Positions 17,616 to 31,673 of a DNA stretch of 33,929 bases are shown piece by piece. Origin of the DNA: Paenibacillaceae bacterium (lineage in GTDB: Bacteria > Bacillota > Clostridia > Lachnospirales > Lachnospiraceae); NCBI GenBank assembly GCA_015057715.1, contig SVDS01000044.1:1-33929 (forward strand). Direction: 5' to 3'. The notes below the pieces were generated by a model, which did not search any database, was not told the DNA's origin, and saw nothing but the letters and a program-made list of their open reading frames with translations. Position 1 is the stretch's first letter. Each line of letters opens with the position of its first letter. The position numbers were made by a program, and so were the translations under genes.

Positions 17616-17675
17616 AATGTTCTTTCCCTTTCTCCATACAAATTCACACCAAACCGAGCTCGTTGCTGTATGGTG

Positions 17676-17705
17676 AGTATAGCTTACTTGTATGAAGACT
17701 GTAAA
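17676..17705 (-). promoter_or_regulatory. promoter of the transporter-catabolic operon
   Basis: On the minus strand TTTACA (17700-17705) and TATACT (17676-17681) are 18 bp apart, about 60 bp before the binding-protein ATG. No catabolite-response element is evident. The weak spacing suits activation by the divergent AraC-type regulator. Confidence 0.6.
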
Positions 17706-17800
17706 TATCCCATTCTTCAACTGGTTTCCATTATTTGCCCTGAAAAGATAATATTTGTTAATAGAACAAAATTTATCAAAAGATAGACTTCTTTCAGCAC

Positions 17801-17829
17801 TTGTTATCAATCTTTAAATCTTATATACT
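17801..17829 (+). promoter_or_regulatory. promoter of the AraC-type regulator
   Basis: TTGTTA (17801-17806) and TATACT (17824-17829) with 17-bp spacing lie about 50 bp before the ATG at 17881, which has a GGGAGGGG ribosome site. The divergent promoters leave about 95 bp between them for shared operators. Confidence 0.7.
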
Positions 17830-17880
17830 TATTTTTGTTACATTTACATAATTTTCTACACCTGGGAGGGGCTATCATAC

Positions 17881-20184
17881 ATGAATCATAATTTAAAAGA
17901 CATCTTACGTAAATTCCGGAACAAAAAACTTCTGACACAGCTTTTTACTGTAATGGCTGCTTTCAGCGGAATTTTAATGGCAGTGGTATCCATGGTAGTC
18001 AACCACCAGACTACGGCCACCTTTCTAAAAAATAATAACCTGATCTACACCAACACTCTGGAAGTTTCCATTAAGACACTGGATACGTTATTTTCCGGTT
18101 TTCACAACTCCCTGACTCATATTACCTATGATGCAAGCATTGTGGATTCCGTCGTGACTCCAAAGCCCTTAGACTCTGTAGCCAATTATCAGGTATGGTC
18201 AGTTCTAAACGGTTACTGCCAGGAAACAGAAGGAATGGAAGAAATTTATCTCTACATAAGAAAAACCAATCAGGTTCTTACATCTACCTATGAAAAATGT
18301 TCCCTTGACTTTTTTCGGGAGAGAGATCTGGTAAACAGGCACTTTGCCTCCCGCCCTTCCACTGTTCTGCTGAAAAGCGGACGCACCACCTCCATTGAAA
18401 TTTATAAGGACAGAGTTTATATGGTGAGGGACTTTCCCTTAAATGGGGAAAAAGGTTTGGGAACTCTGTTTATGAAGATGAAGTCTTCTGTTCTTTCTGA
18501 TGCACTGGAAGCCGCCCAGACATCCTATAGCCACCTTCTGGCCTATGATAATGATTTTAATCCGCTCTTTCCCGGTACGCTTAATTATGACAGGGTGCCA
18601 GAAGGTTTGACTGATCTGATACCGGGGTATATAAAAGAAGGCAGAAATACCATATATTCCGACAATCAGCACTATTATTTCTGTCAGTCTGATCAGACCG
18701 GAATTAATCTGGTTCTGTTGGTTGATGATACGGCCTTCATGCCTTCCACACGTATGGTATTCATGAATTCTCTCCCTTATTTTGCCCTGATTTTAATTTT
18801 AAGCAGTCTTTTGTCGGTGTGCGTTCTCTACTTAAGCTATATGCCTGTACAGAAATTAAAGAAAATGATCTCATTAGAGGAAAGCAGTGGTAACAATGCT
18901 GACAGCAAGAATGAATGGGACTATTTAACAGAAAGTTTTTTAAAGATATCCAATCATAAATATCAGCTGGATTATATTTTAAGTAATATGATTCCAAAAA
19001 TTTCCAAGGAATTTTATTTTGATTTGTTGAACGGAAAACCAATGGATCTCCCTTATATTCAAAGCATACTTACAAATATAGGCAGTCCTTTAAATACAGA
19101 AGATCCATGCAAAGTGATCACAGTCACTTTGCAGGATTTTGTTGATCCAATTTTGAAAAACCATCTCGCTGACAGTTTAAAGCAGATTCTTAAACGGAAT
19201 TCAGATGGTATCTGCAGATATGTACTGCAACAGATCGATGAATCCCTTTATGCAGTGATCATTCAGTTTATAGCAGACCTTGGATATAGTAAAATTACGA
19301 ATTTTGAAATTAAGCTGGAACAAGCCTTTTTTCAATCCAACGATGGCCGGAGTAACGGTGTATTACTGGAGATTGGTCCGAAATGCAGTTCTATTCAGAA
19401 TGTGTCCTTTTCTTATCAGGAAAGCCTGGAAAGACTGGCCAGGCAGAAATACCCTTCAAAAAAGACCAATGAAAAAACAGTGCGCAATGAGGAAGACTCT
19501 GTAAAGTTCAACCATCATTTCTTCCAGCTGCAGATGAAATCAATCTTAGAGTTAATTATGAAAGGGGATACTGACACAGCTTTAAAAAAGGCACTCCATA
19601 TCTGCCATACCCTGCCTCACGACGGTAATCCTGAAGAGATATGCAGAGCTTATGAATATTACCGTCTTGCTTTTGTAAATACACTTGCCTCCTACCGCAT
19701 TACGGAAGCCGAAGAAAAGGAATACGCATTCCTCTTTGATCCGGACCCTTATCCCTCCCAATGCGCAGAGAATCCTGCCTGTATGCAGGAGTATATGGTA
19801 CCGTTTTGTACAGCTGCCGTAAATCTTCTGTCAGAAAAATATCTAAAGCAACAGCATAAGTATTTAATTCGGGCTAAACGCTGCATTGAAGAGTGCTATG
19901 CAGACCCAAATCTTTCCCTGAATCTGCTGGCAGAACAGTGCAAAACTACCACCAGCTATTTAAGCAGGCTTTTTAAAGAGAGCTTTGGAATTAATTTTGT
20001 GGACTATTTAAACCAGTACCGGATAGAAAAGGCCAAAGAGCTGCTTATAACTACCAGTAAACCGGTAAAAGAGATTGCTTCCAATACAGGCTTTAATTCC
20101 CAGCAGAACTTTATCCGGGTATTTAAAAAGCATGCAGGCGTGACGCCTGGACAGTTTAAGTCTGAAAAAGAAAGTACGAAATAA
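17881..20184 (+). CDS. membrane-anchored AraC-family transcriptional regulator
   Basis: A 767-residue one-component sensor-regulator. A first membrane segment lies at about 20-42 and a second at about 298-325 (MNSLPYFALILILSSLLSVCVLYL). The ~250 residues between them form an extracytoplasmic, probably Cache-like, sensor domain. The cytoplasmic middle part (about 330-655) has no motif I can name. The C-terminal ~105 residues are a double helix-turn-helix AraC domain, with LSLNLLAEQCKTTTSYLSRLFKE and IASNTGFNSQQNFIRVFKKHAGVTPG-type segments. Such proteins typically activate neighbouring sugar uptake operons after sensing the ligand outside. It is divergent from the transporter operon, its likely target. 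Confidence 0.9.
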   Translation: MNHNLKDILRKFRNKKLLTQLFTVMAAFSGILMAVVSMVVNHQTTATFLKNNNLIYTNTLEVSIKTLDTLFSGFHNSLTHITYDASIVDSVVTPKPLDSVANYQVWSVLNGYCQETEGMEEIYLYIRKTNQVLTSTYEKCSLDFFRERDLVNRHFASRPSTVLLKSGRTTSIEIYKDRVYMVRDFPLNGEKGLGTLFMKMKSSVLSDALEAAQTSYSHLLAYDNDFNPLFPGTLNYDRVPEGLTDLIPGYIKEGRNTIYSDNQHYYFCQSDQTGINLVLLVDDTAFMPSTRMVFMNSLPYFALILILSSLLSVCVLYLSYMPVQKLKKMISLEESSGNNADSKNEWDYLTESFLKISNHKYQLDYILSNMIPKISKEFYFDLLNGKPMDLPYIQSILTNIGSPLNTEDPCKVITVTLQDFVDPILKNHLADSLKQILKRNSDGICRYVLQQIDESLYAVIIQFIADLGYSKITNFEIKLEQAFFQSNDGRSNGVLLEIGPKCSSIQNVSFSYQESLERLARQKYPSKKTNEKTVRNEEDSVKFNHHFFQLQMKSILELIMKGDTDTALKKALHICHTLPHDGNPEEICRAYEYYRLAFVNTLASYRITEAEEKEYAFLFDPDPYPSQCAENPACMQEYMVPFCTAAVNLLSEKYLKQQHKYLIRAKRCIEECYADPNLSLNLLAEQCKTTTSYLSRLFKESFGINFVDYLNQYRIEKAKELLITTSKPVKEIASNTGFNSQQNFIRVFKKHAGVTPGQFKSEKESTK

Positions 20185-20217
20185 AAGATAGGAAACATGC
20201 GGGAAAGGCGGCAATTT

Positions 20218-20245
20218 CACCGTTTTGTAATTAGTACATACTATA
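20218..20245 (+). promoter_or_regulatory. candidate sigma-K-like promoter before the small-protein/glycosylation cluster
   Basis: CACC (20218-20221) and CATACTATA (20237-20245) match the Bacillus sigma-K consensus (AC, about 17 bp, CATANNNTA), here with 16 bp after AC. The sequence is AT-rich and weaker sigma-A readings are possible, such as TTGTAA near 20226. If right, the cluster would be made in the mother cell late in sporulation. Confidence 0.3.
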
Positions 20246-20249
20246 TATA

Positions 20250-20265
20250 AGAAATACGTATTTCT
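20250..20265 (+). promoter_or_regulatory. perfect 16-bp palindrome before the first small-protein gene
   Basis: AGAAATACGTATTTCT is a perfect palindrome 27 bp before the ATG at 20293 and just downstream of the promoter candidate. It may be an operator or a 5' stabilising stem in the leader. Confidence 0.4.
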
Positions 20266-20292
20266 ATTATTATATCAAGTGGGGGCGTTATC

Positions 20293-20577
20293 ATGGCTAA
20301 TTATAAACCAGTTGTCAGGACAATCGGGGCAGCATCAGCTGCTTCAGGCATTGTTCTTCCTGCAAAGCTTTCAACTACAAGCTGGGTACTTCTTTTAGTC
20401 AGGGGTACTGCTGTATTTAGCAATACAATCTTAAGAAGTGGTGCTGTTGCTATCTGGAAAAGCACAACTCCAACAACCGCAGAACCAAGTGAAGTAACCT
20501 TTACAGATGCAAACGCAGTTTACGGTATTTCCACCAAAGCCGGTGTTCAGCTCAGATTCAAATTCTACGCTAAATAA
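20293..20577 (+). CDS. 94-residue protein of unknown function, first gene of cluster
   Basis: Not recognised. The product is rich in Ala, Thr, Ser and Val, has no Cys, and shows no signal peptide or membrane segment. Alternating hydrophobic stretches (TSWVLLLVRGTAVF, GAVAIWKSTT) suggest a beta-rich fold. The end is aromatic and basic (QLRFKFYAK), as seen in some self-assembling or exported beta proteins. GGGGGCG is the ribosome site. A GC-rich hairpin follows the stop and could stabilise or end part of the transcript, so this gene may be expressed above those behind it. The many Ser/Thr residues would offer glycosylation sites for the Maf enzyme downstream. A structural surface subunit is a guess from context. 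Confidence 0.75.
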   Translation: MANYKPVVRTIGAASAASGIVLPAKLSTTSWVLLLVRGTAVFSNTILRSGAVAIWKSTTPTTAEPSEVTFTDANAVYGISTKAGVQLRFKFYAK

Positions 20578-20584
20578 AAGCTCC

Positions 20585-20612
20585 GGGGTGTTCATTTTTT
20601 TTGGGACACCCC
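20585..20612 (+). other. GC-rich hairpin between first and second cluster genes
   Basis: GGGGTGT pairs with ACACCCC (plus T-G and C-G) around a T-rich loop. No T run follows the stem, so it is not a standard terminator. A 3' stabiliser or partial attenuator of the first gene's mRNA is more likely. Confidence 0.45.
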
Positions 20613-20630
20613 TACAAAGGAGGCGGTGGT

Positions 20631-20921
20631 ATGTTATCTAAATTATGTTTTACAGGCTGTCAGTTAATCTGCTCCGGAGTTGTAACTGCAGATGTGAATT
20701 TAGCATGTGATTCAAATCTGTTTCTTACAGGAACGGTATATACTCCTACCGGAGAACCTTTGCCTGATGCTGCCATTGAAGTACGCATACTTGATGACGC
20801 TGATCCTCCCCGGGTGATCCGGGTCGGTGTCACGTTTTCTCTTGCAGATGGCACTTATGGGGTCTCTCTGCCCAGAATACCTGGCAGACAGTATCAGCTG
20901 CTGGCTTTTTCGCCTTTATAG
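20631..20921 (+). CDS. small carboxypeptidase-regulatory-like beta-sandwich protein
   Basis: A 96-residue protein. From about residue 30 it has the pattern FLTGTVYTPTGEPLPDAAIEV, then a turn with DGTYGVSLP, and ends YQLLAFSPL. This is the carboxypeptidase-D regulatory-like (transthyretin-like) fold reduced to one domain. The first ~28 residues contain three cysteines (CFTGCQLIC) and are not a clear signal peptide. The start at 20631 follows AAAGGAGG. It is one of four such small paralogues in this cluster, with the glycosyltransferase gene 37 bp downstream. Role unknown; a surface building block or glycan acceptor is the context-based guess. Confidence 0.75.
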   Translation: MLSKLCFTGCQLICSGVVTADVNLACDSNLFLTGTVYTPTGEPLPDAAIEVRILDDADPPRVIRVGVTFSLADGTYGVSLPRIPGRQYQLLAFSPL

Positions 20922-20958
20922 GCATTGGCTTAAGGTCACCATTCTTGTGGAGGAAGCT

Positions 20959-22689
20959 ATGAAAATAATTAAAACTTCTGATGGATATAAAGTCTGCCGT
21001 ATAAAAAAAGAAAAGAAATATGAATATCTGGCAGATATTACACATTACGACCAGGAGATTCGTAAGCTTATGGATACTCTGGATGGATTAAAATTCGATT
21101 CCCTTGTTTTTTTATTCGGCATAGATACCGGAGCTTATTTAGAGCAATTAAGAAAATGTCTCTGCAGCAAAAACACTGTTATTATCTTTGAACCAAACCC
21201 CTCCGTTTTCAAACAGTTCCCGGCGGCCTTAAGCGATAATATTCATCTGGTTTTTTATGAAGAAAAACTGGTGAAGCAGATATTTGAACAGACCATTACT
21301 TTTAAAAATATCAATAATATCTATTTTTATGCGTTTGGAAATTACCAGAAAATCTATAAAAAAGAATATGACCGGCTGATCGAACATCTGGACTGGACTA
21401 TCATGAACGCTGCCTCCCAGGTATATTTAGCCAAGCGTTTTAAAAATGTTTTCATAAAAAATATGATAGCAAACATGAAAATAATTCATCAGGCTACTCC
21501 TGTCAACAACTATGTATTTTCCAACAAGGACGTTCCCGCCATTGTAGTATCCGGCGGAGCTTCTCTGGAACAGAATATAAAGGATATGTTGAAGCAGAAG
21601 GATAAATTGAACGATTACTTTATTATAACAGGAAGCAGAACATTAAAAGCACTTGTTCAAAACGGAATTGTTCCGGATATGGTTGTTTCCGTTGATCCGG
21701 TAGATGCCAATTATGAAATGATGAAAGATTATCTGGATTTAGACGTGCCGCTGGCATTTTATGAATACAGCAACCGTTATCTTCTAAGGGATTATAAAGG
21801 AGGGAAAATTCTGATTTCTCTTCTGTTTTCCCATACCATAAAAGGAATGGAGCATTTGAAATCGGTGTATTGCGGCGGATCTGTATCCCATGCCTGTATT
21901 GACATCGCCAACATGCTGGGCTGTTCTCCCATTCTTCTTACTGGTCAGGATTTTGCACTTACAAATAAAAAACATCACGCAGACAGCGCAGTGTTTCCCT
22001 TTGACAGCAGCAGCCGGTATGATGCCCAGATCATGATTAAGGATGTCAATGGCAATCTCACAGAAACAACGGTAACCCTGGATTCCTTCAGACGAAATCT
22101 TGAGTATTATATCAGCTGTTATAAAGACCAGCCCCGTGTCCAATTTATTAACTGTTCTTATGGAGCGGAAATAAAAGGGGCTCCTCACAGGGAATTAAGT
22201 GAGATATTGGAAAAAAGTACTTTTTCCAGTCATAAAACTCCCTGCAGACCAAATCATGAACTAAATCTGAATCCTGAAACGACAATTAAAACCATTTTGG
22301 AATTTTTAGATAACTATCTGACTAAAACCAGTCAGGGATTGGAATTGTGCCAGATCATCCTATCTGAAAATAAGACGAAATCTCTTCTGGATGTTGAAGA
22401 AGACGATATAGATCTTCAGAGAATCCTATATATCCTACAAATTGTAAATAACATTGAAAATGACCCATACAACCAGTTTTTTGGAGGGTATTTTACGGAA
22501 TTCCTCTATGATATGAAAGAAAAAAACAATAATATGTCTGCAAAAGATTTTGATAAATTAACTTCTGACCTTCAATATCAGACACTTTTTTTCAAAGAAT
22601 ACTTAGAACGCCTCAATGAAATACTTGCAGAGGTTAAGGATACCATTGTCTCAACGGTATCAGAATTCTACCAATCGCATATAGTTTAG
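20959..22689 (+). CDS. Maf-type protein glycosyltransferase (DUF115/MptE-like)
   Basis: A 576-residue cytosolic enzyme of the motility-associated-factor family, which attaches nonulosonic acids (pseudaminic or legionaminic acid) to Ser/Thr of surface proteins, classically flagellin. The N-terminal part (1-150) has a Rossmann-like LVFLFGIDTGAYL and VIIFEPNPSVF. The core MptE-like domain starts with PAIVVSGGASLEQNI (Gly199-Ser202 region) and contains IVPDMVVSVDP and CSPILLTGQDFALT. The C-terminal ~130 residues are helical. The start at 20959 follows GTGGAGG; an earlier in-frame start (20827) would overlap the previous gene heavily. A full legionaminate pathway lies downstream, so CMP-legionaminic acid is the likely donor. 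The acceptor is unknown because no flagellin is nearby. Confidence 0.88.
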   Translation: MKIIKTSDGYKVCRIKKEKKYEYLADITHYDQEIRKLMDTLDGLKFDSLVFLFGIDTGAYLEQLRKCLCSKNTVIIFEPNPSVFKQFPAALSDNIHLVFYEEKLVKQIFEQTITFKNINNIYFYAFGNYQKIYKKEYDRLIEHLDWTIMNAASQVYLAKRFKNVFIKNMIANMKIIHQATPVNNYVFSNKDVPAIVVSGGASLEQNIKDMLKQKDKLNDYFIITGSRTLKALVQNGIVPDMVVSVDPVDANYEMMKDYLDLDVPLAFYEYSNRYLLRDYKGGKILISLLFSHTIKGMEHLKSVYCGGSVSHACIDIANMLGCSPILLTGQDFALTNKKHHADSAVFPFDSSSRYDAQIMIKDVNGNLTETTVTLDSFRRNLEYYISCYKDQPRVQFINCSYGAEIKGAPHRELSEILEKSTFSSHKTPCRPNHELNLNPETTIKTILEFLDNYLTKTSQGLELCQIILSENKTKSLLDVEEDDIDLQRILYILQIVNNIENDPYNQFFGGYFTEFLYDMKEKNNNMSAKDFDKLTSDLQYQTLFFKEYLERLNEILAEVKDTIVSTVSEFYQSHIV

Positions 22690-22718
22690 TAAATCCTATG
22701 AGAATAGAGGGTATGCAT

Positions 22719-22883
22719 ATGGAAGACGACGTTCAATTTGATTCAATTAAGAACAATTACAAAGAAATGAAAGTATCCAAAATGATTGTAAACGGAAAAG
22801 AGCAGGAAGGAAACATCATCAGTGCTGAAGTTACAAAAGACAGTCAGCAGTTAAACGTGACCGTTTATACCCAAAACGAGTAA
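22719..22883 (+). CDS. 54-residue acidic protein of unknown function
   Basis: Not recognised. The start at 22719 (MEDDVQFDSIK) is preferred over ATGs at 22698 and 22713 because AGAGGG lies 7 bases upstream. The second half (KMIVNGKEQEGNIISAEVTK...) reads as beta strands with a VNGKE turn. The product has no cysteine, signal peptide or membrane segment. It lies between the glycosyltransferase and the second beta-sandwich gene, all co-directional with short gaps, so it probably belongs to the same system. Confidence 0.7.
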   Translation: MEDDVQFDSIKNNYKEMKVSKMIVNGKEQEGNIISAEVTKDSQQLNVTVYTQNE

Positions 22884-22913
22884 AGCTTGAAAGAAAGGGG
22901 GCGAAACGAAACC

Positions 22914-23237
22914 ATGGACTGTCATAAACATTCCTCTTACACCATAAGAGGCTCCAGGCTTCTGCCCTGCAGAGAGAATCATTTTGATTTTCATCTTGGC
23001 CGTATCAACTTTCAAATCATAAAGGGAACTGTTTACTGCCTGAATCAGACCCCCAGCGCCGGAGCTGCCGTACAGATCACCCAGGTCGATCTGGTGAATC
23101 ACACTTCGACTGTACTTGGTTACGCAATTACAGATGAAGCGGGGCGTTATGTCTTTTCCCTGGAGGCACGGCCTGACATGAAATATGAGATTTCGGTCTT
23201 CGCCCCATTAATCACTGAGCGAAAGGGGGATATTTGA
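22914..23237 (+). CDS. small carboxypeptidase-regulatory-like beta-sandwich protein
   Basis: A 107-residue protein with the same plan as the gene at 20631. After a Cys/His-containing N-terminus it shows IIKGTVYCLNQTPSAGAAVQI, then GYAITDEAGRYVFSLEA and ends KYEISVFAPLI. The start is uncertain: ATG 22914 lies about 13 bases after AAAGGGGGC, while an upstream TTG (22887) lies before that site and is unlikely. The TGA stop overlaps the next ATG by one base, implying coupled translation. Likely one of a set of subunits, not an enzyme: no catalytic motif is seen. Confidence 0.78.
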   Translation: MDCHKHSSYTIRGSRLLPCRENHFDFHLGRINFQIIKGTVYCLNQTPSAGAAVQITQVDLVNHTSTVLGYAITDEAGRYVFSLEARPDMKYEISVFAPLITERKGDI

Positions 23238-23533
23238 TGAGCTGCTATACCGAACTTTTAATATCACCAAAGAATTTTAATAACAGAAATATAGCTTCGG
23301 CAGTCATTACCATGGATTACGTTCCTGAAGTACTGCTGACCGGAACCGTTTATAATAACCGGTGTGAAGCTGTAGAAGGCGCAGTCGTTCGTGTTATCGC
23401 TGTGGCCTCTCTTATTAAAAAGGATCTTGGTTATGTAATGACCAATCAATTTGGAGAATTTGCCATTGTGGTAGAAAAGAATCCGCAAATCAACTACCAG
23501 TTCGATATCTACGAACCGGTCCTCACCAGTTAA
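23237..23533 (+). CDS. small carboxypeptidase-regulatory-like beta-sandwich protein
   Basis: A 98-residue paralogue. It has LLTGTVYNNRCEAVEGAVVRV, then GYVMTNQFGEFAIVV and QINYQFDIYEPV. The start ATG shares one base with the previous stop (TGATG) and follows GGGGG with 7-base spacing. No signal peptide is seen, as in its relatives, so export would have to be by another route, or the proteins are released or assembled on a spore. It is closer in length and layout to the preceding gene than to the one after. Confidence 0.78.
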   Translation: MSCYTELLISPKNFNNRNIASAVITMDYVPEVLLTGTVYNNRCEAVEGAVVRVIAVASLIKKDLGYVMTNQFGEFAIVVEKNPQINYQFDIYEPVLTS

Positions 23534-23548
23534 TTAAGGGGAAATGTT

Positions 23549-23785
23549 ATGGCACGTGGAATAATCAGAGGAATGGTCCGCTACAAAAATCGTGTTCCCG
23601 TGAGAGGGGCCATCATTATTTTGGAACGAATGGTAAATGTATTTAATGAAGAACTGAAAGAAGACGACTGGGAAGGTGTCTACCTGGGTTTCACTCAGAC
23701 GAACATACACGGGGAGTTTTATTTTTCTGTTCCGGACAATACCGTTACATACCGGGTAAAAGTATTTGACAATCATCATGAGTGA
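23549..23785 (+). CDS. minimal carboxypeptidase-regulatory-like beta-sandwich protein
   Basis: A 78-residue protein, the shortest of the four paralogues; it lacks the N-terminal extension. The pattern is IIRGMVRYKNRVPVRGAIIIL, a longer acidic insertion (FNEELKEDDWEGVY), then GFTQTNIHGEFYFSVPD and YRVKVFD. It starts at ATG 23549 after AAGGGG. It ends 11 bp before the first legionaminate gene, linking the small-protein set and the sugar pathway in one transcript. Confidence 0.78.
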   Translation: MARGIIRGMVRYKNRVPVRGAIIILERMVNVFNEELKEDDWEGVYLGFTQTNIHGEFYFSVPDNTVTYRVKVFDNHHE

Positions 23786-23796
23786 GGAGGGACATC

Positions 23797-24777
23797 ATGA
23801 AAAAGGTACTGGTCACGGGAGCAGACGGCTTTATCGGCAGTCATCTGACGGAGGAGCTTGTCAATCGAGGGTATCAGGTAAAAGCATTTGTCTACTATAA
23901 CTCCTTTGGTACCTACGGCTGGCTTGATACTCTTCCCACACATATAAAGGTTGAAATTGAAATACATAGCGGAGACATCCGGGATCCCAATGGAGTAAGG
24001 GCAGCTGTATCCGGTGTTGATTCCGTCTTTCACCTGGCAGCGTTGATTGCCATTCCATACAGCTATGAGTCTCCTGATTCTTATGTGGATACCAATATAA
24101 AAGGTACCTTAAATATCCTTCAGGCTGCAAGAGCCTTAGAAACTGGCAAAGTATTGATTACATCCACTTCAGAAGTCTACGGCAGTGCCGACTATGTTCC
24201 CATTGATGAATCTCATCCCTTTAAAGCCCAGTCCCCTTATTCTGCTACGAAGATAGGCGGTGACCGGCTGGCGGAATCATTTTACAGGAGTTTTTCTCTT
24301 CCTGTTGCAATTGTGCGGCCGTTTAATACGTATGGCCCAAGACAGTCAGCAAGGGCAGTCATTCCCACAATTATCAGTCAGCTTCTGGCCGGAAAGGAAG
24401 ACATCCATCTGGGAAGTCTTACTCCTACCAGAGATTTTAATTATGTAAAGGATACCGTTAACGGCTTTATTGAAATCGAATCATCGGAACATACCGTAGG
24501 AGAAGAAATTAATATAGCCAGCGGAATAGAAATTTCCATCGGTGAACTTGCCCTGGAACTGATCCGCCAGATTAATCCAAAGGCTGAGATCATTTGTGAA
24601 AATGAAAGACTTCGCCCGGAAAAAAGCGAAGTGACAAGACTTCTTGGATCAAATAAAAAACTGAAAGCCCTGACCAACTGGAAACAGCAATATACCTTAT
24701 CTCAGGGTCTGGAAGAAACCATACACTGGATGGAAAACAATTTAAACCATTACCGGACAGACCGGTATAACATTTAA
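23797..24777 (+). CDS. legB: nucleotide-sugar 4,6-dehydratase (LegB)
   Basis: A 326-residue extended SDR. The NAD loop is VTGADGFIGSH at the N-terminus, the catalytic segment STSEVYGSADYVPI is followed by YSATKIGGD (Tyr/Lys pair), and FNTYGPRQSARAVIP binds the nucleotide sugar. In legionaminate synthesis LegB converts GDP-GlcNAc (or UDP-GlcNAc in other systems) to the 4-keto-6-deoxy form. The start at 23797 follows GAGGAGGG. The assignment rests on the sequence plus the exact set of partners; alone it could be called a generic dTDP-glucose or UDP-GlcNAc dehydratase. Confidence 0.87.
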   Translation: MKKVLVTGADGFIGSHLTEELVNRGYQVKAFVYYNSFGTYGWLDTLPTHIKVEIEIHSGDIRDPNGVRAAVSGVDSVFHLAALIAIPYSYESPDSYVDTNIKGTLNILQAARALETGKVLITSTSEVYGSADYVPIDESHPFKAQSPYSATKIGGDRLAESFYRSFSLPVAIVRPFNTYGPRQSARAVIPTIISQLLAGKEDIHLGSLTPTRDFNYVKDTVNGFIEIESSEHTVGEEINIASGIEISIGELALELIRQINPKAEIICENERLRPEKSEVTRLLGSNKKLKALTNWKQQYTLSQGLEETIHWMENNLNHYRTDRYNI

Positions 24778-24799
24778 TAGAAACTGCAGGAGGCATCCC

Positions 24800-25948
24800 A
24801 TGATTCCCCTATCTGTGCCTGTAATCAAAGGCAATGAAAAAAAATATGTAGACGAGGCGATTTCAAATGGCTGGGTCTCTGCTTCGGGCAGCTATGTAAC
24901 CAGATTTGAACATGAAATGGCTGATTATTTAAAGGTAAAACAAACAGCTGCGGTCCAAAGCGGCACAGCTGCTCTCCATCTGTCTTACCTTCTATCCGGG
25001 GTAAAACCAGGTCAGGAAGTAATCGTACCTGCACTGACTTTTATTGCCGCGGTGAATCCTGTAAAGTATCTGGGTGCAGAACCAGTCTTTATGGATTGTG
25101 ACGATTCACTGAATATGGACTGTCAGAAACTGGAAGATTTTCTAAAAAAGGAATGTACAAAAACAACATTGGGCCTTAAAAATAACAAATCCAAACGGAT
25201 TATCACTGCAATCACAGTAGTTCATATCTTTGGAAATATGGCAGATATGGAATCCCTCGTCCGCCTGGCTGATGAGTATGGCTTAAAACTGATTGAAGAT
25301 GCCACGGAAGCACTTGGAACCAGATATACAGACGGGATATATGAGGGGAAATTTGCAGGTACCATGGGTGATTTCGGTGCCTATTCCTTTAACGGCAATA
25401 AAATCATCACAACCGGCGGCGGTGGAATGGTGACTGCAAAAAAAGCGGCTGACGTGGAACGATGTGTTTATCTGGCAACTCAGGCAAAGGATGATTCTCT
25501 CTTTTATGTCCACAATCACATTGGCTACAATTACCGGATGACCAATATGCAGGCAGCCCTTGGAGTCGGGCAGCTGGAATGTCTGGAAGATTATATCCAC
25601 ATTAAGGTACAAAATTATAATTATTACAGGGAAAAGCTTGAGAATTTTGAGGATTTGCAACTGATGCCATTTAACGAGAAGGCCAGAAATAATCACTGGT
25701 TTTACTCTCTTCTTTTAAAGAACAAGGCTTTAAAAAGAGATATACTTATAAGACAGCTGAAAGAAGCCGGTATTGAGACCAGACCCATCTGGAAACTGAA
25801 TCACACACAGACCATGTATCAGAGCTGCCAGACCTATTATATTGAAAAAGCGCCTTTCTATCAAAGCAGAATCATAAATCTGCCCTGCAGTGTGAATGTA
25901 ACGGAAGCAGACATGGACTTTATTATAGAAGCTTTAAGGAAAAGCTGA
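24800..25948 (+). CDS. legC: PLP-dependent nucleotide-sugar aminotransferase (LegC)
   Basis: A 382-residue DegT/DnrJ/EryC1/StrS-family aminotransferase that adds an amino group at C4 of the keto sugar. Typical motifs are AVQSGTAALHLSYLL near residue 60, IEDATEALGTRY (PLP-binding Asp), and SFNGNKIITTGGGGM with the Schiff-base lysine. Near the C-terminus ETRPIWKLNHTQ is a family hallmark. The start follows GCAGGAGGC. It lies 22 bp after legB, its pathway predecessor. Confidence 0.92.
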   Translation: MIPLSVPVIKGNEKKYVDEAISNGWVSASGSYVTRFEHEMADYLKVKQTAAVQSGTAALHLSYLLSGVKPGQEVIVPALTFIAAVNPVKYLGAEPVFMDCDDSLNMDCQKLEDFLKKECTKTTLGLKNNKSKRIITAITVVHIFGNMADMESLVRLADEYGLKLIEDATEALGTRYTDGIYEGKFAGTMGDFGAYSFNGNKIITTGGGGMVTAKKAADVERCVYLATQAKDDSLFYVHNHIGYNYRMTNMQAALGVGQLECLEDYIHIKVQNYNYYREKLENFEDLQLMPFNEKARNNHWFYSLLLKNKALKRDILIRQLKEAGIETRPIWKLNHTQTMYQSCQTYYIEKAPFYQSRIINLPCSVNVTEADMDFIIEALRKS

Positions 25949-25969
25949 CAACCGGAAGGAGGGATTGGC

Positions 25970-27016
25970 ATGGACGTGGAAAAATTCTTTGTTACACCGG
26001 ACATTCCAATCAGAGATGCAATCCGGCAGTTAGATGAGACGGCTAAGAAAATGCTGCTGGTTGTAAAAGATCATAAGCTGACAGGAGTTATAACAGACGG
26101 AGATATCCGCCGGTGGATTCTGCAAAATAAGGATTTGTCCATGCCAGTGCATCATATTATGAATCCCTCCCCCATTGTTATAAAAGAAGAGGAACTTTCT
26201 GAAGCACTGAATATCATGAAGGAAAAGCGAATTGAAGGGCTCCCTGTGGTAAATGACAACGGCCAGGTTCTTGATCTGGTCTTCTGGAATGAACTGCAGC
26301 AAGAAAAAAAGCAGCCTGTAAGGAAACGGAAAACTCCGGTAGTAATCATGGCAGGAGGGAAAGGTTCCAGGCTTTACCCTTATACAAAGATCATTCCGAA
26401 ACCACTAATTCCCATCGGAGATACCCCAATTGTAGAACGAATTATGAATCAGATGATCTCCTATGGATTTACAGAGTTCTATTTGACAGTCAACTACAGA
26501 AAAGAGCTGATTAAAGCATATTTTAATGGAGATCGGCGCTATCATCTTCATTTTGTGGAGGAAAAGGAAGCCCTTGGAACAGCAGGATCCCTGACTCTTG
26601 TGAAGGATCAGATTCCAGGAAGTTTTTTTGTCAGCAACTGCGATATTCTGGTTGATATTGATTATGCAAAGCTCCTTCTTTACCACAAAAAAAGCAAAAA
26701 CCAGATTACGGTTGTGACAGCCATGAAAAATTATGAGATTCCTTATGGAGTGATCTCTCTGGACAAAAACGGCTGCATTCAATCCATGAGTGAAAAACCA
26801 AAGTATGAATTTCTGGTCAGTACAGGGCTTTATGTACTGGAAAAAGATATTTTAAAATATATTCCCGGGGATACACCATTTGACATGCCGGATTTAATCC
26901 GCCTGTGTATGAAGAATGACGAAAAAGTGGGCGCTTACCCGGTTATGGACAGCACATGGCTTGACATGGGGGAATTCAGTGAAATGAAAAAGATGGCTGA
27001 GAGAATGAAACTATGA
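25970..27016 (+). CDS. ptmE: CBS-domain sugar-1-phosphate nucleotidyltransferase (PtmE)
   Basis: A 348-residue fusion. Two CBS motifs occupy about 1-118 (GVITDGDIRRWIL and IEGLPVVNDNGQVL). A nucleotidyltransferase domain then begins VVIMAGGKGSRLYPYTKIIPK. The architecture equals Campylobacter PtmE, which makes GDP-glucosamine from GlcN-1-phosphate and GTP to feed the GDP-sugar version of the legionaminate pathway. The CBS pair may sense nucleotides. The stop overlaps the next start (ATGA). No GDP-GlcN N-acetyltransferase or GlmS-like partner is found in the window, so those steps must be supplied elsewhere. Confidence 0.87.
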   Translation: MDVEKFFVTPDIPIRDAIRQLDETAKKMLLVVKDHKLTGVITDGDIRRWILQNKDLSMPVHHIMNPSPIVIKEEELSEALNIMKEKRIEGLPVVNDNGQVLDLVFWNELQQEKKQPVRKRKTPVVIMAGGKGSRLYPYTKIIPKPLIPIGDTPIVERIMNQMISYGFTEFYLTVNYRKELIKAYFNGDRRYHLHFVEEKEALGTAGSLTLVKDQIPGSFFVSNCDILVDIDYAKLLLYHKKSKNQITVVTAMKNYEIPYGVISLDKNGCIQSMSEKPKYEFLVSTGLYVLEKDILKYIPGDTPFDMPDLIRLCMKNDEKVGAYPVMDSTWLDMGEFSEMKKMAERMKL

Positions 27017-27660
27017 AAAAAAAGCTGATCCTCCTGGGTGGAGGCGGTCATGCAGAAAGTGTGATTGATACCATTCGTTCAAAAAAAGAATACCAGATTG
27101 CAGGGATCTTAGACAACGGCAAAAGCCGTGGAATGACAGTCTCCGGCATTATGGTGCTTGGGTCTGATGAACTACTTGCAGATGTTTACGGCAGAGGTAT
27201 TCGATATGCGGTAATTGCAATCGGGAGCGTGGGAAATCCACAGACAAGAATCCGGCTTTTTGAAGAGTGTAAGGCCATCGGCTATCAACTCCCATGCATC
27301 ATTGATAAAAGCGCTGTACTATCCACAGATTTTCATATGGGGGAAGGGATCTTTATCGGTAAAGGAGCTGTCATAGGAGCGGGTGTAAGCCTGGGTAATG
27401 GCTGTATCATTAACAGCGGCGCAATTTTGGAGCATGGCTGTGCAGTTGGATGCTTTGCTCACGCAGCACCTGGCTGCACACTCTGCGGTAACGTAACAGT
27501 AGGGGATAATACTCATATTGGGGCAGGAAGTACTGTGATCCAGAACCGGACCATTGGAAGTAATTCCATGATCGGTGCAGGCAGCCTGGTTCTGTCTGAC
27601 ATTTCCTCAAACAAGCTGGTATATGGAAGTCCTTCAAGGGAGGTTGGTCGTTTTGAGTAA
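27013..27660 (+). CDS. NeuD/PglD-type acetyltransferase, probable LegH role
   Basis: A 215-residue left-handed beta-helix acetyltransferase. The N-terminal Rossmann-like part has GGGGHAESVIDTI, and the rest is hexapeptide repeats (GEGIFIGKGAVIGAGVSLG and similar). PglD-type enzymes N-acetylate the 4-amino group of nucleotide sugars. In this operon it would produce the diacetamido sugar after LegC, the role of LegH; NeuD-like O-acetylation of the finished sugar is the alternative. The start overlaps the ptmE stop, and the end overlaps the TTG start of the next gene by eight bases. Confidence 0.85.
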   Translation: MKKKLILLGGGGHAESVIDTIRSKKEYQIAGILDNGKSRGMTVSGIMVLGSDELLADVYGRGIRYAVIAIGSVGNPQTRIRLFEECKAIGYQLPCIIDKSAVLSTDFHMGEGIFIGKGAVIGAGVSLGNGCIINSGAILEHGCAVGCFAHAAPGCTLCGNVTVGDNTHIGAGSTVIQNRTIGSNSMIGAGSLVLSDISSNKLVYGSPSREVGRFE

Positions 27661-28648
27661 AATTATGATAATAGCCGAGGCTGGAGTTAACCATAATGGA
27701 GATTTAAACATCGCAAGACAGTTAATTGATGCCGCTTGTGCAGCAGGCGCAGATGCGGTCAAATTCCAGACCTTCCGCGCAGAGCTCTTAGCTACTCCCA
27801 AAGCGAAAAAAGCAGATTATCAGTTTCATTACACAGGTACGGATCACTCTCAATTTAAAATGTTAAAGGAACTGGAATTATCCTGGAAGGACTTTAAGCT
27901 TCTCTCCGACTACTGCACCTTCCGCGGCATTCAGTTTCTCTCCTCTCCTTTCGACGAGGACAGTATGGAGTATCTGGACAGCATAGGTATGAAGATTATT
28001 AAAATACCATCCGGCGAGATCACAAATTATTGCTTTTTAAAAAAAGCAGCGTCATTAAAAAAGCCGGTTATCCTTTCTACTGGAATGTCAACGCCAGCAG
28101 AAATCCGGGATGCCCTAAAACTTCTGGACCAGAGCGGACAGGATATCACACTTCTCCACTGTTCCAGCATTTACCCAACGCCCATGGAAGATGTAAATTT
28201 AAACGCCATGATTACCTTGAGAGAGATGTTTCATAAAAATACAGGATATTCTGATCACACTGCCGGCATCGAGGTAGCGGTGGCTGCGGCTGCACTCGGA
28301 GCCTGTGTTATTGAAAAGCATATGACTCTTGATAAAACCATGCCGGGGCCGGATCACCGGATGAGTCTGGAGCCGGACGAATTTAAGCACATGGCTGACA
28401 GTGTGCGAAATATTGAACAGGCAATGGGCAACGGAATAAAAGCTCCTGCAGGAGACGAACTGAAAAACCGGGATCACGTAAGAAAGTTTCTGGTAGCTGC
28501 AAAGGACATTCAGATGGGTGAGCCGTTTACAATGGAAAATCTCTGTGCCAAACGCTGCTCTCCCGGAATCTCGCCTATGGAGCTTCCTCAGATTCTTGGT
28601 ACTCTTGCAGACAGAAACTATGGAAAGGATGATAAAATAGGGGAATGA
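27653..28648 (+). CDS. legI: N,N'-diacetyllegionaminate synthase (LegI/NeuB family)
   Basis: A 331-residue enzyme condensing a diacetamido-trideoxy-hexose with PEP to make legionaminic acid. N-terminal IIAEAGVNHNGDL and the following DAVKFQTF are the NeuB barrel signatures; IKIPSGEITN and GYSDHTAG are conserved active-site segments. The C-terminal ~60 residues form a SAF (antifreeze-like) domain. The chosen start is TTG at 27653, 9 bases after GGGAGG, giving an N-terminus MSKIMIIAEAG. An ATG at 27665 is possible but poorly spaced and would cut into the first strand. The stop overlaps legG by four bases. Confidence 0.93.
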   Translation: MSKIMIIAEAGVNHNGDLNIARQLIDAACAAGADAVKFQTFRAELLATPKAKKADYQFHYTGTDHSQFKMLKELELSWKDFKLLSDYCTFRGIQFLSSPFDEDSMEYLDSIGMKIIKIPSGEITNYCFLKKAASLKKPVILSTGMSTPAEIRDALKLLDQSGQDITLLHCSSIYPTPMEDVNLNAMITLREMFHKNTGYSDHTAGIEVAVAAAALGACVIEKHMTLDKTMPGPDHRMSLEPDEFKHMADSVRNIEQAMGNGIKAPAGDELKNRDHVRKFLVAAKDIQMGEPFTMENLCAKRCSPGISPMELPQILGTLADRNYGKDDKIGE

Positions 28649-29808
28649 TCAGACTATGTGTGGTAACTGGCAGCCGGGCGGAATACGGTTTGCTGACTCC
28701 ATTGATCCGGAATATAATGAAAGACCAGGACTTGAAACTACAGCTTCTGGTTACGGGAACCCATCTGGATACCCGGTTCGGACTTGATTATCAGGAAATG
28801 GAACAGGACGGAATTGTAATTGATGAAATGGTGGAAATGAACCTGGCCAGTGACACTTCCTATGGCATCTGCAAATCCATGGGACTGGAGCTGATTGGCA
28901 TCTCCGGCGCCTATGAACGGTTAAACCCCCATATGATACTCCTTCTTGGAGACCGCTATGAAATTTTTACGGCAGCAAGTGCCGCCGTGATCTGCAAGAT
29001 TCCAATCGCCCATATACATGGAGGGGAACTGACTCAGGGAGCTTATGACGACTGCATGCGCCATGGAATCACAAAAATGAGTTATCTTCATTTTACCAGC
29101 ACGGAAGAATACAGAAAGCGGGTGATCCAGCTGGGAGAATCGCCTGACAGAGTATTTAACGTAGGAGCACTGGGCATAGAACAGATTAAGGGTCTGTCTC
29201 TTCTGTCAAAAGAGGAGCTGGAACAATCACTTCATACAGCTCTGCCCTCCCCACTTTCCCTGGTCACATACCATCCCGCTACACTGGATCCTTTCAGTGC
29301 AAAAAATCAGTTTCAGCCGCTTTTAGATGCTCTGGATTCCTTTCCAGAGCTATTTACAGTGTTTACGGGAAGCAACGCCGACACTGGAGGAAATCAGGTC
29401 AATGAAATGGCGATTTCCTATACCAGAAAACATCCGGAGCGGGCGGTATATATTTCTTCTTTAGGTTCCCTTCGGTATTTAAGTCTGATGAGTGTAAGCC
29501 GGCTTGTAATTGGCAACTCTTCCAGTGGAATCCTGGAAGCCCCCGCTTTCCATGTTCCCACGGTGGATATCGGACTCCGGCAGCTAGGCAGAATAAAGCC
29601 AGAGTCTGTCATCAGCTGCGGTACATCCGCCGAAAACATTGGTCATGCAATTTCTCAGGCAATGAATCTGGATCTTAAGAACCATACTTTCAAAAATCCC
29701 TATGATTGTCCGGGAACCAGCCAAAAAATCATCACATGCATAAAAGAGGCGTTTCGTACGGGAATTCATCTGGAAAAAGAATTTTATGATATTGATTGGA
29801 GACTGTAA
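28645..29808 (+). CDS. legG: hydrolysing nucleotide-sugar 2-epimerase (LegG/NeuC family)
   Basis: A 387-residue enzyme that inverts C2 and removes the nucleotide to release 2,4-diacetamido-2,4,6-trideoxymannose. It contains VTGSRAEYGLLTPLI, LLGDRYEIFTAA and HIHGGELTQGAYDDCMRH, then VIGNSSSGILEAP, all standard for NeuC-type hydrolysing epimerases. The start ATG overlaps the legI stop (ATGA), and its stop shares one base with the legF start, so translation is coupled across three genes. Confidence 0.93.
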   Translation: MIRLCVVTGSRAEYGLLTPLIRNIMKDQDLKLQLLVTGTHLDTRFGLDYQEMEQDGIVIDEMVEMNLASDTSYGICKSMGLELIGISGAYERLNPHMILLLGDRYEIFTAASAAVICKIPIAHIHGGELTQGAYDDCMRHGITKMSYLHFTSTEEYRKRVIQLGESPDRVFNVGALGIEQIKGLSLLSKEELEQSLHTALPSPLSLVTYHPATLDPFSAKNQFQPLLDALDSFPELFTVFTGSNADTGGNQVNEMAISYTRKHPERAVYISSLGSLRYLSLMSVSRLVIGNSSSGILEAPAFHVPTVDIGLRQLGRIKPESVISCGTSAENIGHAISQAMNLDLKNHTFKNPYDCPGTSQKIITCIKEAFRTGIHLEKEFYDIDWRL

Positions 29809-30515
29809 TGATTCAGAAAAAAAGAGTTCTTGCATTAGTACCGGCCAGAAGCGGCTCAAAGGGCATCAGGGATAAAAATATCAGAGAAATGAATGGGAAG
29901 CCATTAATGGGATATACCATTGATGCCTGTATAAAAGCAGGATTTTTTGACGATATCCTTGTATCTACCGATTCAGTACTTTATCAAAAGACGGCAGTAG
30001 AGCTTGGTGCCTCAGCTCCATTTTTAAGACCGCTTAACCTTTCCGGTGATGAATCAGCCTCATGTGATGTGATCCTTCATGCAATAAATGAAATGAAAAA
30101 GCTTGGGAAGGAGTATGACTATTTTATGCTGCTTCAGCCTACCTCTCCCCTTAGAAACGAAGAACATATTCTGGAAAGCATGAATTTACTATTTGAAAAG
30201 CATGCCGATTCCGTAATCAGTGTCTGTCCCTATGATTGTAAATGCTATCTTTCAGTGGAGATTACTGAAACTGGTGAAATAAAAACGCCAGATTCCCTAA
30301 AAAAACAGATTAGGAGACAGGATGTAAAATCCGGCTTCCGGATCAACGGCGCCATCTATCTTACATCTGTCCCCAATTTTCTTAACTATGGTAATTTTTA
30401 CAGCGGAAAAACTTATCCCTATTTTATGAATCCTTTAGACTCTGTGGACATCGATGACAACGATCAGTTCTATCTGGCAAAACTCATACTGAGTGACAGA
30501 GCTGGTACGTCATGA
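29808..30515 (+). CDS. legF: CMP-legionaminate synthetase (LegF/NeuA family)
   Basis: A 235-residue cytidylyltransferase that activates legionaminic acid with CTP for the glycosyltransferase. It begins with LALVPARSGSKGIRDKNI, the CMP-sugar synthetase signature. ILVSTDS, LQPTSPLRNEEHI and INGAIYLT follow in the family order, and VDIDDNDQF closes the active site. The start at 29808 (TAATG) follows GGAG; an earlier ATG at 29796 lies inside legG. It is the last gene of the plus-strand cluster and overlaps the convergent peptidase gene by six bases, with no terminator between. Confidence 0.93.
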   Translation: MIQKKRVLALVPARSGSKGIRDKNIREMNGKPLMGYTIDACIKAGFFDDILVSTDSVLYQKTAVELGASAPFLRPLNLSGDESASCDVILHAINEMKKLGKEYDYFMLLQPTSPLRNEEHILESMNLLFEKHADSVISVCPYDCKCYLSVEITETGEIKTPDSLKKQIRRQDVKSGFRINGAIYLTSVPNFLNYGNFYSGKTYPYFMNPLDSVDIDDNDQFYLAKLILSDRAGTS

Positions 30516-30530
30516 AGGCTGGTACGTCAT
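30501..30530. repeat. 17-bp-period tandem duplication at the legF/peptidase junction
   Basis: GCTGGTACGTCAT occurs at 30501-30513 and again at 30518-30530, separated by four bases. It lies exactly across the convergent stop codons, TGA of legF at 30513-30515 and TGA of the peptidase at 30510-30512 on the other strand. It looks like a recent slippage or repair duplication that reshaped both C-termini. Confidence 0.8.
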
Positions 30531-31655
30531 AAGTCCCAGAGCCAGAAGAGTGCTTTTCTCCAACTGATCTGCTGTTGTGTATTCGCTTGTGGTATGCACC
30601 TCATTCATGCCACAGGCGACCACAATGCCCCTGATTCCGTTGCGTACAAAATGGTTGTTATCACTTCCGCCCAGTGTCTTGTGGGTGTCTGCCTCTACGC
30701 CAATGTCATCGCAGACCCTTTTAAAGCGCTTTACCACCTCTTCATCCTCATGGATTTCATAGGCCTCGATCTGCTTTTCAAAGGAATATTCTATGCTTCC
30801 CCCGCGGCAGCCCCCAGCTTCTTCAAAGACTTTTTTCAGCTTTTCCCATTCTTCCATAGCACGGTCATCCTTCAGACTGCGTATCTCACCAATTAAAATG
30901 CACTCATCCGCAACAATATTTCCCTGCTTTCCTCCGCTTATCTTTCCGATGTTAACCGTAGTCTCTTCATCAGCCCAACCCTGCTTAATGCGGGAGATAG
31001 CGGTTGCTGCAATCTCTATGGCATTAATTCCAAGCTGGGGGCAGAAACCGGCGTGGGCATTCTTTCCCTTTACTTTGATTTCAAAGGATAAAAGAGTGGG
31101 CGCTGCTAACGCTGCATTGCCAATCTCACCGCTTAAGTCAAACACATATGCCAGTTTGGAATGGATAGCAGAATAGTCCGCAAGCTGGCTGCCTTTTCCG
31201 TAATTTTCTTCTGCCACAGGAAACAAAACTTCAATATCTGGATGGGAGATGTTTTGTTCCTTTATGGTTCGGACTGCCTCCAATATTGCTGCAATTCCGG
31301 AAAGATCGTCTGCTCCCAGAACCGTCTCTCCTTCAGAAGTAATCACACCGTTTTCATCCTCTGCGGCATGCTTCCCAATTCCAGGTCTCACCGTATCCAT
31401 ATGAGCGGATAAAAGAACTGGCTCTCCAGCAGTATTCCCTTTTAAATAACCGTAAAGATTACCTGTTGGGATTGCATCTCCATAACCTGGAATCCGTTCT
31501 TTCAGACGAATACCAGCATCATCTTCTTTTACTGCAAACCCCAGCTGTTTCATCTCTTCAATCAGATAATCTGCAATTTCTCTCTCATGATACGTCTCTG
31601 AATCAAATTCCACCATTCGTTTAAACTGGCTGACCAGCCTGCTTCTGTTAATCAT
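30510..31655 (-). CDS. M20 metallopeptidase, peptidase T-like
   Basis: A 381-residue cytosolic di-zinc aminopeptidase of the PepT-like group (YqjE type). Zinc ligands are visible in LSAHMDTV (His), GADDLSG (bridging Asp), PVAEEN (Glu pair), FDLSGE (Asp) and EVHTTSEYT (His). Between them lies the dimerisation/lid domain. Likely cleaves small peptides after other peptidases. The start at 31655 has only a modest CAGGTGA ribosome site. It follows the GST-like gene by 18 bp and is probably co-transcribed with it. Its last residues (TYQPS) come from the short duplication at the convergent junction. Confidence 0.9.
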   Translation of the reverse strand: MINRSRLVSQFKRMVEFDSETYHEREIADYLIEEMKQLGFAVKEDDAGIRLKERIPGYGDAIPTGNLYGYLKGNTAGEPVLLSAHMDTVRPGIGKHAAEDENGVITSEGETVLGADDLSGIAAILEAVRTIKEQNISHPDIEVLFPVAEENYGKGSQLADYSAIHSKLAYVFDLSGEIGNAALAAPTLLSFEIKVKGKNAHAGFCPQLGINAIEIAATAISRIKQGWADEETTVNIGKISGGKQGNIVADECILIGEIRSLKDDRAMEEWEKLKKVFEEAGGCRGGSIEYSFEKQIEAYEIHEDEEVVKRFKRVCDDIGVEADTHKTLGGSDNNHFVRNGIRGIVVACGMNEVHTTSEYTTADQLEKSTLLALGLMTYQPS

Positions 31656-31673
31656 TCAATCACCTGCCTGGAA

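Follow-up and report, generated by a model that had tools for sequence, protein, structure and literature searches.

The window considered here is a stretch of 33,929 nucleotides (contig C18 of a 5.4-Mb Lacrimispora-like genome) that carries an operon of 14 co-directional genes on the + strand (positions 20293-30515): six genes for small proteins, a gene for a Maf-type glycosyltransferase, and seven genes for a nonulosonate sugar pathway. The gene order is P1, P2, Maf, P4, P5, P6, P7, LegB, LegC, CBS-nucleotidyl transferase, NeuD, NeuB, NeuC, LegF, and the gaps between genes range from -11 to +53 nucleotides (with the TTG at 27653 taken as the start of NeuB, -8 replaces -11). The module recurs away from flagellar genes in other genomes behind a conserved promoter motif of the sigma-K type, and it probably serves to decorate with sugar the spore surface rather than the flagellum.

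Enzymes and small proteins of the operon

In family searches and locus comparisons, the reading frames used for NeuB (from 27650) and LegF (from 29805) begin a codon ahead of the likely start. Five sugar-pathway proteins score above the curated cut-offs of families of CMP-legionaminate (CMP, cytidine monophosphate) synthesis: LegB (TIGR04180), LegC (TIGR04181), NeuD (TIGR03570), NeuB (TIGR03569), and NeuC (TIGR03568). The CMP-sugar synthetase matches PseF at 164.4 bits, below the cut-off of 205.7, and the CBS-nucleotidyl transferase is presumably PtmE-like. The predicted product is a CMP-legionaminate-type sugar; legionaminate fits better than pseudaminate because LegB and LegC are above their cut-offs and NeuB is above its own but below that of PseI, the synthetase not being decisive. 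The operon holds the one strong NeuB (PF03102) place of its genome (325 bits); two weak ones lie elsewhere (37.5 and 23.5 bits, both above the Pfam cut-off).

The transferase belongs to the Maf family by its domain, PF01973 (MptE-like/DUF115), which it matches at 141.1 bits against a curated cut-off of 34.6; it is the sole PF01973 match in its own genome at an expectation value (E) <= 0.001. It is 96-97% identical to the Mafs of Lacrimispora defluvii, L. xylanisolvens ASCUSBR21, and a Hungatella-labelled metagenome-assembled genome (MAG), and a sequence search of the PDB with it gave no match. In the Maf tree, the system Mafs (20 rows, including three fragments of the frame-disrupted Maf of locus L049) are split from 27 flagellar-locus rows by a branch of support 100/100 and length 2.2; the NeuB tree makes the split between system and flagellar-locus sequences with support 97/100. 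Core residues are shared, with 18 Maf positions conserved in at least 90% of both the system (17 rows) and flagellar (27 rows) groups. Four positions differ systematically between the groups; position 401 is Tyr in the system and mostly Glu in the flagellar group.

Five of the six small proteins are related and form one group of carboxypeptidase-regulatory/transthyretin-like beta proteins. Among 36 aligned P2, P5, and P6 members, 30 match PF13620 (CarboxypepD_reg) at E <= 0.01 (best 3.6e-7); the small proteins of the window reach 13.6-21.6 bits, short of the gathering cut-off of 32.3, with no match for P1 and P4. The beta proteins may work like a CarboxypepD_reg domain, and they are described here by that likeness rather than as members of the family. 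In the three beta-protein pairs compared, hhalign gives profile probabilities of 98.9% for P2-P5, 96.2% for P6-P7, and 94.5% for P1-P2. The AlphaFold model of P5 is a five-strand beta protein with a mean predicted local distance difference test score (pLDDT) of 78.7; that of P1 is all-beta at low confidence (pLDDT 60). A fold search with P5 against the PDB gave no match at E <= 0.001 (best 0.026), the weak matches including complement macroglobulin-domain, transthyretin-like, and tumour necrosis factor-like chains, and a PDB search with the beta-protein profile reached a best E of only 0.018. The maximum Kyte-Doolittle value over 19-residue windows is at most 1.44 in all of the small proteins and at most 1.33 in their N-terminal stretches; by this measure none appears to have a strongly hydrophobic N-terminal segment or an evident signal peptide.

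P4 is a distinct protein with about 40 conserved residues (alignment of 17 rows), no Pfam match, and one weak NCBIfam match far below cut-off; that it is a further beta protein was rejected at an hhalign probability of 0.15%. P4 is a possible partner or acceptor of Maf. In [Clostridium] fimetarium, P4 (L047 11684-12238) is extended by many QES(E/D)(P/A)-type repeats that form a Ser-rich acidic spacer, which could itself be a glycan acceptor. A C-terminal P4 motif with a (K/R)RS end is common to L043-L045 and L047.

A sequence-only reading of this DNA had described twelve to thirteen co-directional genes with tiny gaps, comprising six unknown small proteins, Maf, and seven legionaminate-type genes. 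The common direction and tight spacing hold, with the count corrected to 14, and family searches bear out the gene content. "Unknown" remains apt for P4, which matches nothing convincing, and no longer for the five proteins of the beta group. Both the CarboxypepD_reg-like nature of these five and the sigma-K-type promoter had been missed.

Conservation of the module apart from flagellar genes

Two exact peptide patterns, scanned against the genome contigs of 84,980 species, identify at least 17 related loci, a lower bound because only these patterns were used. They come from Lacrimispora, Lachnotalea, Galacturonibacter, [Clostridium] fimetarium, [Clostridium] aerotolerans, two Clostridium sp., and several MAGs. 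Fourteen loci reach from P1 to LegF (P1 of L050 is cut by a contig end), and in 12 of these the full set of 14 genes keeps one order, on which ground chance co-location was rejected; L036, L037, and L048 are consistent with the order up to their contig ends. One of the 12 complete loci, L049, has several genes split between reading frames: on this complete L. xylanisolvens ASCUSBR21 chromosome, P2, Maf, the PtmE-like gene, NeuB, NeuC, and LegF are affected, through sequencing error or decay. L036 is a contig of a Paenibacillaceae-labelled MAG; its Maf is 91% identical to that of the window and groups with L. xylanisolvens, and the contig is probably a mis-binned one from Lacrimispora.

In a sample of 200 genomes of the family, Maf (E <= 1e-20) is found in 23 and P1 (E <= 0.01) in three, namely the window's own genome, G144, and G170, which are exactly the three with a Maf identity of at least 48%. 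The P2 profile (E <= 1e-6) matches the window's own genome alone in a sample of 398 genomes of the phylum. Loci L046 and L050 coincide with the G144 and G170 places, and L029/L030 repeat them.

Flagellar context was compared with seven protein queries (tblastn, E <= 1e-4) in stretches of at most 20 kb, taken about the Maf in all 20 other genomes of the family sample that have one and about the additional Maf of G144. Flagellin is present in all 21 of these distant-Maf loci, often with FliD, FliW, and FliS; none of the 17 system loci matches any of the seven queries within a reach of at most 10 kb on either side, four of them being short contigs. FliD, FliW, FliS, and the other non-FliC queries carry names that we take from gene order and sequence; two PF00669 genes come from the family search. 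By eye, and with no family scan run across the whole window, none of the open reading frames (ORFs) of the window looks flagellar. Judged by its position, the operon is not a flagellin island, in which flagellar genes would adjoin. Its own genome has flagellin on another contig, C8, and a further PF00669 gene on C38.

G144 carries, besides the operon, a second Maf adjoining flagellin (Galacturonibacter, L033, contig C8). No LegB, LegC, NeuB, or LegF match lies in the 20 kb taken around this flagellar Maf, which may therefore draw its sugar donor from another source, perhaps the system operon.

The proposal of the sequence-only reading that the small genes co-occur with Maf and the sugar pathway outside flagellar loci is thus upheld by the kept order and by the absence of flagellar matches. 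The pattern that this reading had named as its refutation is not seen: the relatives do not place the module's Maf beside flagellin, and the small genes do travel with it. The wider proposal, a new glycosylated surface system, gains from a module that travels away from flagellin and is tempered by the flagellin-family gene present in every host genome.

The P1 promoter, palindrome, and hairpin

A motif of the form CAC-N16/17-CATANTATA begins 72-76 nucleotides upstream of the P1 ATG in the window and in all 15 related loci with upstream DNA (L036 and L050 have no DNA upstream of P1 and are left out of the count). CAC-N16/17-CATA(C/T/A)TATA is kept even though distant members align poorly in the stretch ahead of P1. 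The 17 system loci (627,300 bases, both strands) contain 15 matches, all at P1 and one in each of the 15 loci with that DNA; the flagellar loci (767,658 bases) contain none. Of 2000 first-order Markov simulations made per upstream region (15 regions), at most one contained the motif. These simulations, like the hairpin set below, cover the window and 14 loci without L049, which is included in the locus scan and the -35/-10 comparison. The tie of the motif to P1 is strong.

The sigma-K consensus of B. subtilis is KCACM / GCATANNNTA, and spoVFB of Epulopiscium has TCACA / TCATATTATA (PMC3416734); the promoter in the window reads TCACC / ACATACTATA. With the B. subtilis consensus as the standard, the -35/-10 arrangement is of the sigma-K type, and the -10 element CATANNNTA is found in 16/16 upstream regions. 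In C. difficile the -10 elements of sigma-E and sigma-K are very similar and the difference lies at -35 (PMC3789822); the operon's -35 reads as the sigma-K kind rather than the sigma-E kind. The strict form TCAC-N16/17-CATANTATA occurs at two places in the window's own genome, versus one for the reversed control. YabG, the second intended sigma-K control, is absent from this genome, and comparison with sigma-28 was uninformative, its fliC having no clear site. The best sigK candidate of the genome is in two pieces (L063 1498-1779 on contig C267; L064 1435-1866 on contig C13), the 3' piece lying directly 3' of a large serine recombinase gene. Such a split beside a serine recombinase is what would be expected for interruption by a skin-type element.

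Directly behind the promoter stands a perfect palindrome, the 14-base core of which has one exact copy in the genome. It was considered as the operator of a regulon and rejected as such, given that single exact copy and four one-mismatch copies versus three in the control.

A hairpin 3' of the P1 stop persists while its sequence differs between lineages. Its folding z-score is below -2 in 13/15 cases (window -1.6, L048 -1.7) versus 4/45 equal-length control segments in neighbouring coding sequence, with a mean of -3.31 versus -0.43 for the controls. Because no T run follows the stem in the window, the hairpin resembles a stabilising or processing element more than a terminator. A stabilising hairpin would favour abundant production of P1, in line with a role as a main structural protein.

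Coordinates of the operon and its upstream features are given in Table 1. Rfam gave no match over window positions 17500-31700. An AraC-family gene upstream (17881-20184) was rejected as part of the module: it has matches at 8/17 related loci, two of the 17 having no upstream DNA. A phage or plasmid gene set was likewise rejected: phage records gave no match to Maf, and plasmid records gave none to P2 (the converse pairs were not searched). Downstream, a 658-amino-acid ORF on the - strand (31674-33650) consists of two similar halves, with the likely active site CPWA in the first and CHWS in the second; both halves resemble what we take to be glutathionyl-hydroquinone reductase.

Table 1. Operon genes and associated features, in window coordinates (aa, amino acids; Ser/Thr, serine plus threonine residues)
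Feature	Position	Strand	Basis
Sigma-K-type promoter, CAC-N16-CATACTATA	20218..20245	+	Window and 15/15 related loci with upstream DNA
Perfect 16-base palindrome AGAAATACGTATTTCT, directly 3' of -10	20250..20265	.	14-base core in 13/16 upstream regions
P1, 94 aa, 21 Ser/Thr	20293..20577	+	Alignment, hhalign, AlphaFold, Ser/Thr count
Hairpin between P1 and P2	20580..20622	+	Folding z-scores
P2, 96 aa, CarboxypepD_reg-like beta protein	20631..20921	+	PF13620 E 0.0016, below cut-off
Maf-type glycosyltransferase, 576 aa	20959..22689	+	PF01973 E 3.9e-41; own clade
P4, 61 aa, without known family	22698..22883	+	Conserved core in 17 rows
P5, 107 aa, CarboxypepD_reg-like beta protein	22914..23237	+	PF13620 E 2.8e-4, below cut-off; model pLDDT 78.7
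P6, 98 aa, CarboxypepD_reg-like beta protein	23237..23533	+	PF13620 E 0.09 (window copy)
P7, 78 aa, beta protein, kin of P6	23549..23785	+	hhalign 96.2%; PF13620 E 0.036, below cut-off
LegB, NAD-dependent 4,6-dehydratase	23797..24777	+	TIGR04180, 495 bits, above cut-off
LegC aminotransferase	24800..25948	+	TIGR04181, 462 bits, above cut-off
CBS + nucleotidyl transferase	25970..27016	+	PF00571, PF00483
NeuD/PglB-type acetyltransferase, LegH-like	27013..27660	+	TIGR03570, above cut-off
NeuB/LegI synthase, start TTG 27653 or ATG 27665	27653..28648	+	TIGR03569 above cut-off; PseI below its own
NeuC/LegG epimerase-hydrolase	28645..29808	+	TIGR03568, above cut-off
CMP-nonulosonate synthetase, LegF-like	29808..30515	+	PseF TIGR03584, below cut-off

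A proposed role at the spore surface and its known counterparts

The operon may be best explained as making a legionaminate-decorated spore-surface layer, with the sugar added by Maf in the mother-cell cytoplasm, a reading that we consider moderately probable. Late in sporulation, mother-cell sigma-K would transcribe all 14 genes from the single promoter; the seven sugar-pathway proteins, from LegB to LegF in gene order, would produce the CMP-legionaminate-type sugar; cytosolic Maf would transfer it onto Ser/Thr of at least one of the small proteins made alongside it; and the small proteins would assemble on the spore from the mother-cell side. It is the sigma-K-type promoter that makes the spore the likely site. 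Spore layers are laid down from the mother-cell cytoplasm, and because assembly would proceed from that side, no secretion signal would be needed. A surface protein without a signal, paired with a cytoplasmic enzyme, is puzzling for a vegetative coat and natural for a spore layer. Cytoplasmic action of Maf follows from flagellin, which Maf glycosylates before export (PMC4065374). Three features make P1 the favoured acceptor or main structural protein: its gene comes first, it is rich in Ser/Thr, and the hairpin behind it could raise its yield. The broader view, to which we give about an even chance, is that a flagellar Maf has moved to the spore, giving a self-contained Lachnospiraceae module for a layer or appendage of transthyretin-like paralogues, legionaminylated in the mother-cell cytoplasm, in which transferase and acceptors are co-encoded.

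Several observations weigh against the spore-surface reading. The -35 element is an exact KCACM in 8/16 upstream regions, the window among them; seven, including L045, are one base off and L048 is two off. The second strict-motif place in the genome (L071 1460-1529, contig C217) lies about 40 bases before an ATP-binding cassette transporter ATPase gene, with no evident sporulation gene, and the in-genome control, a dpaA-like gene (the best TIGR02853 match, below cut-off), shows only a partial match, CAC-N16-CATATAAAC. Two of the spanning loci deviate in gene content, L047 lacking LegC and L050 lacking P7 and LegB. Tyr401 in place of Glu leaves the catalytic activity of the system Mafs open to doubt. 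Lastly, a PF00669 gene above cut-off is present in 17/17 host genomes, strong in 16 and weak and FlgL-sized in the draft of L037.

Because every system host carries a flagellin-family gene, the operon could instead act in trans, supplying Maf and CMP-legionaminate for a flagellin on another contig, with the small proteins as accessories. The window's own genome has a single PF01973 gene and a flagellin, and no sugar gene is evident by eye in the fetched stretches around that flagellin and FlgL; furthermore, clusters of Leg genes and Maf that lie outside the flagellar region in Clostridium (C. taeniosporum, C. cellulovorans, and C. gasigenes) have been read as flagellar, and in 2/3 they adjoin chemotaxis genes (PMC13317340). 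Such a role would leave the sigma-K-type promoter, the separation of system Mafs from flagellar-locus Mafs in the tree, the second, flagellin-adjoining Maf of G144, and the fixed presence of six small genes in the operon without a ready place, and we regard it as unlikely, though a serious contender. The promoter fits equally well with a spore system in which the beta proteins are only a scaffold, and either Maf acts on a spore protein whose gene lies elsewhere or the sugar joins a spore polysaccharide; five paralogous small proteins fixed beside the transferase, and a Maf family known for protein O-glycosylation (PMC11339370), make this quite unlikely. Small beta proteins could also form a vegetative cell-surface coat or filament, a case rendered very improbable by the lack of a strongly hydrophobic N-terminal segment, by the sigma-K-type promoter, and by the neighbouring AraC-type regulator, which does not travel with the module.

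If the spore-surface reading is true, this Maf clade, with its fixed place in a sporulation-type operon, would represent a second use of a family known from flagellin, and spore nonulosonates would gain a definite transferase together with a few candidate acceptors. The adhesion of commensal spore-formers and their perception by the host may also be affected by sialic-acid-like sugars on the spores. Among the open-licence PMC articles listed in literature searches, no title or abstract beginning describes a Maf on spores, a nonulosonate on clostridial spores, or such a gene set.

The closest counterparts come from flagella and from other spores. Flagellin Maf/nonulosonate islands likewise place a Maf enzyme beside nonulosonate genes (PMC13317340, PMC4065374, PMC9298399). 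The system loci differ from them in lacking the seven tested flagellar genes and in having the sigma-K-type promoter, six small proteins, and a separate Maf clade. BclA3 and SgtA of C. difficile presumably belong to other families than the operon's beta proteins and Maf. The likeness lies in a glycosyltransferase that modifies a spore-surface protein (PMC7157674). P4, directly 3' of maf, recalls by position GlfM, a factor co-encoded with Maf-2 and acting together with it (PMC13317340). The sps genes of B. subtilis supply the spore crust with legionaminate, the transferase and acceptors being still to be identified in 2020 (PMC7439481). The spsA-L set thus resembles the operon in providing legionaminate for the spore surface from a sporulation-linked gene set; compared by description, the passages of that source on the set name no Maf gene, whereas the operon co-encodes Maf and candidate acceptors (PMC7439481). 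The new element would accordingly be the move of Maf from flagella into spore nonulosonate glycosylation, which is itself already known.

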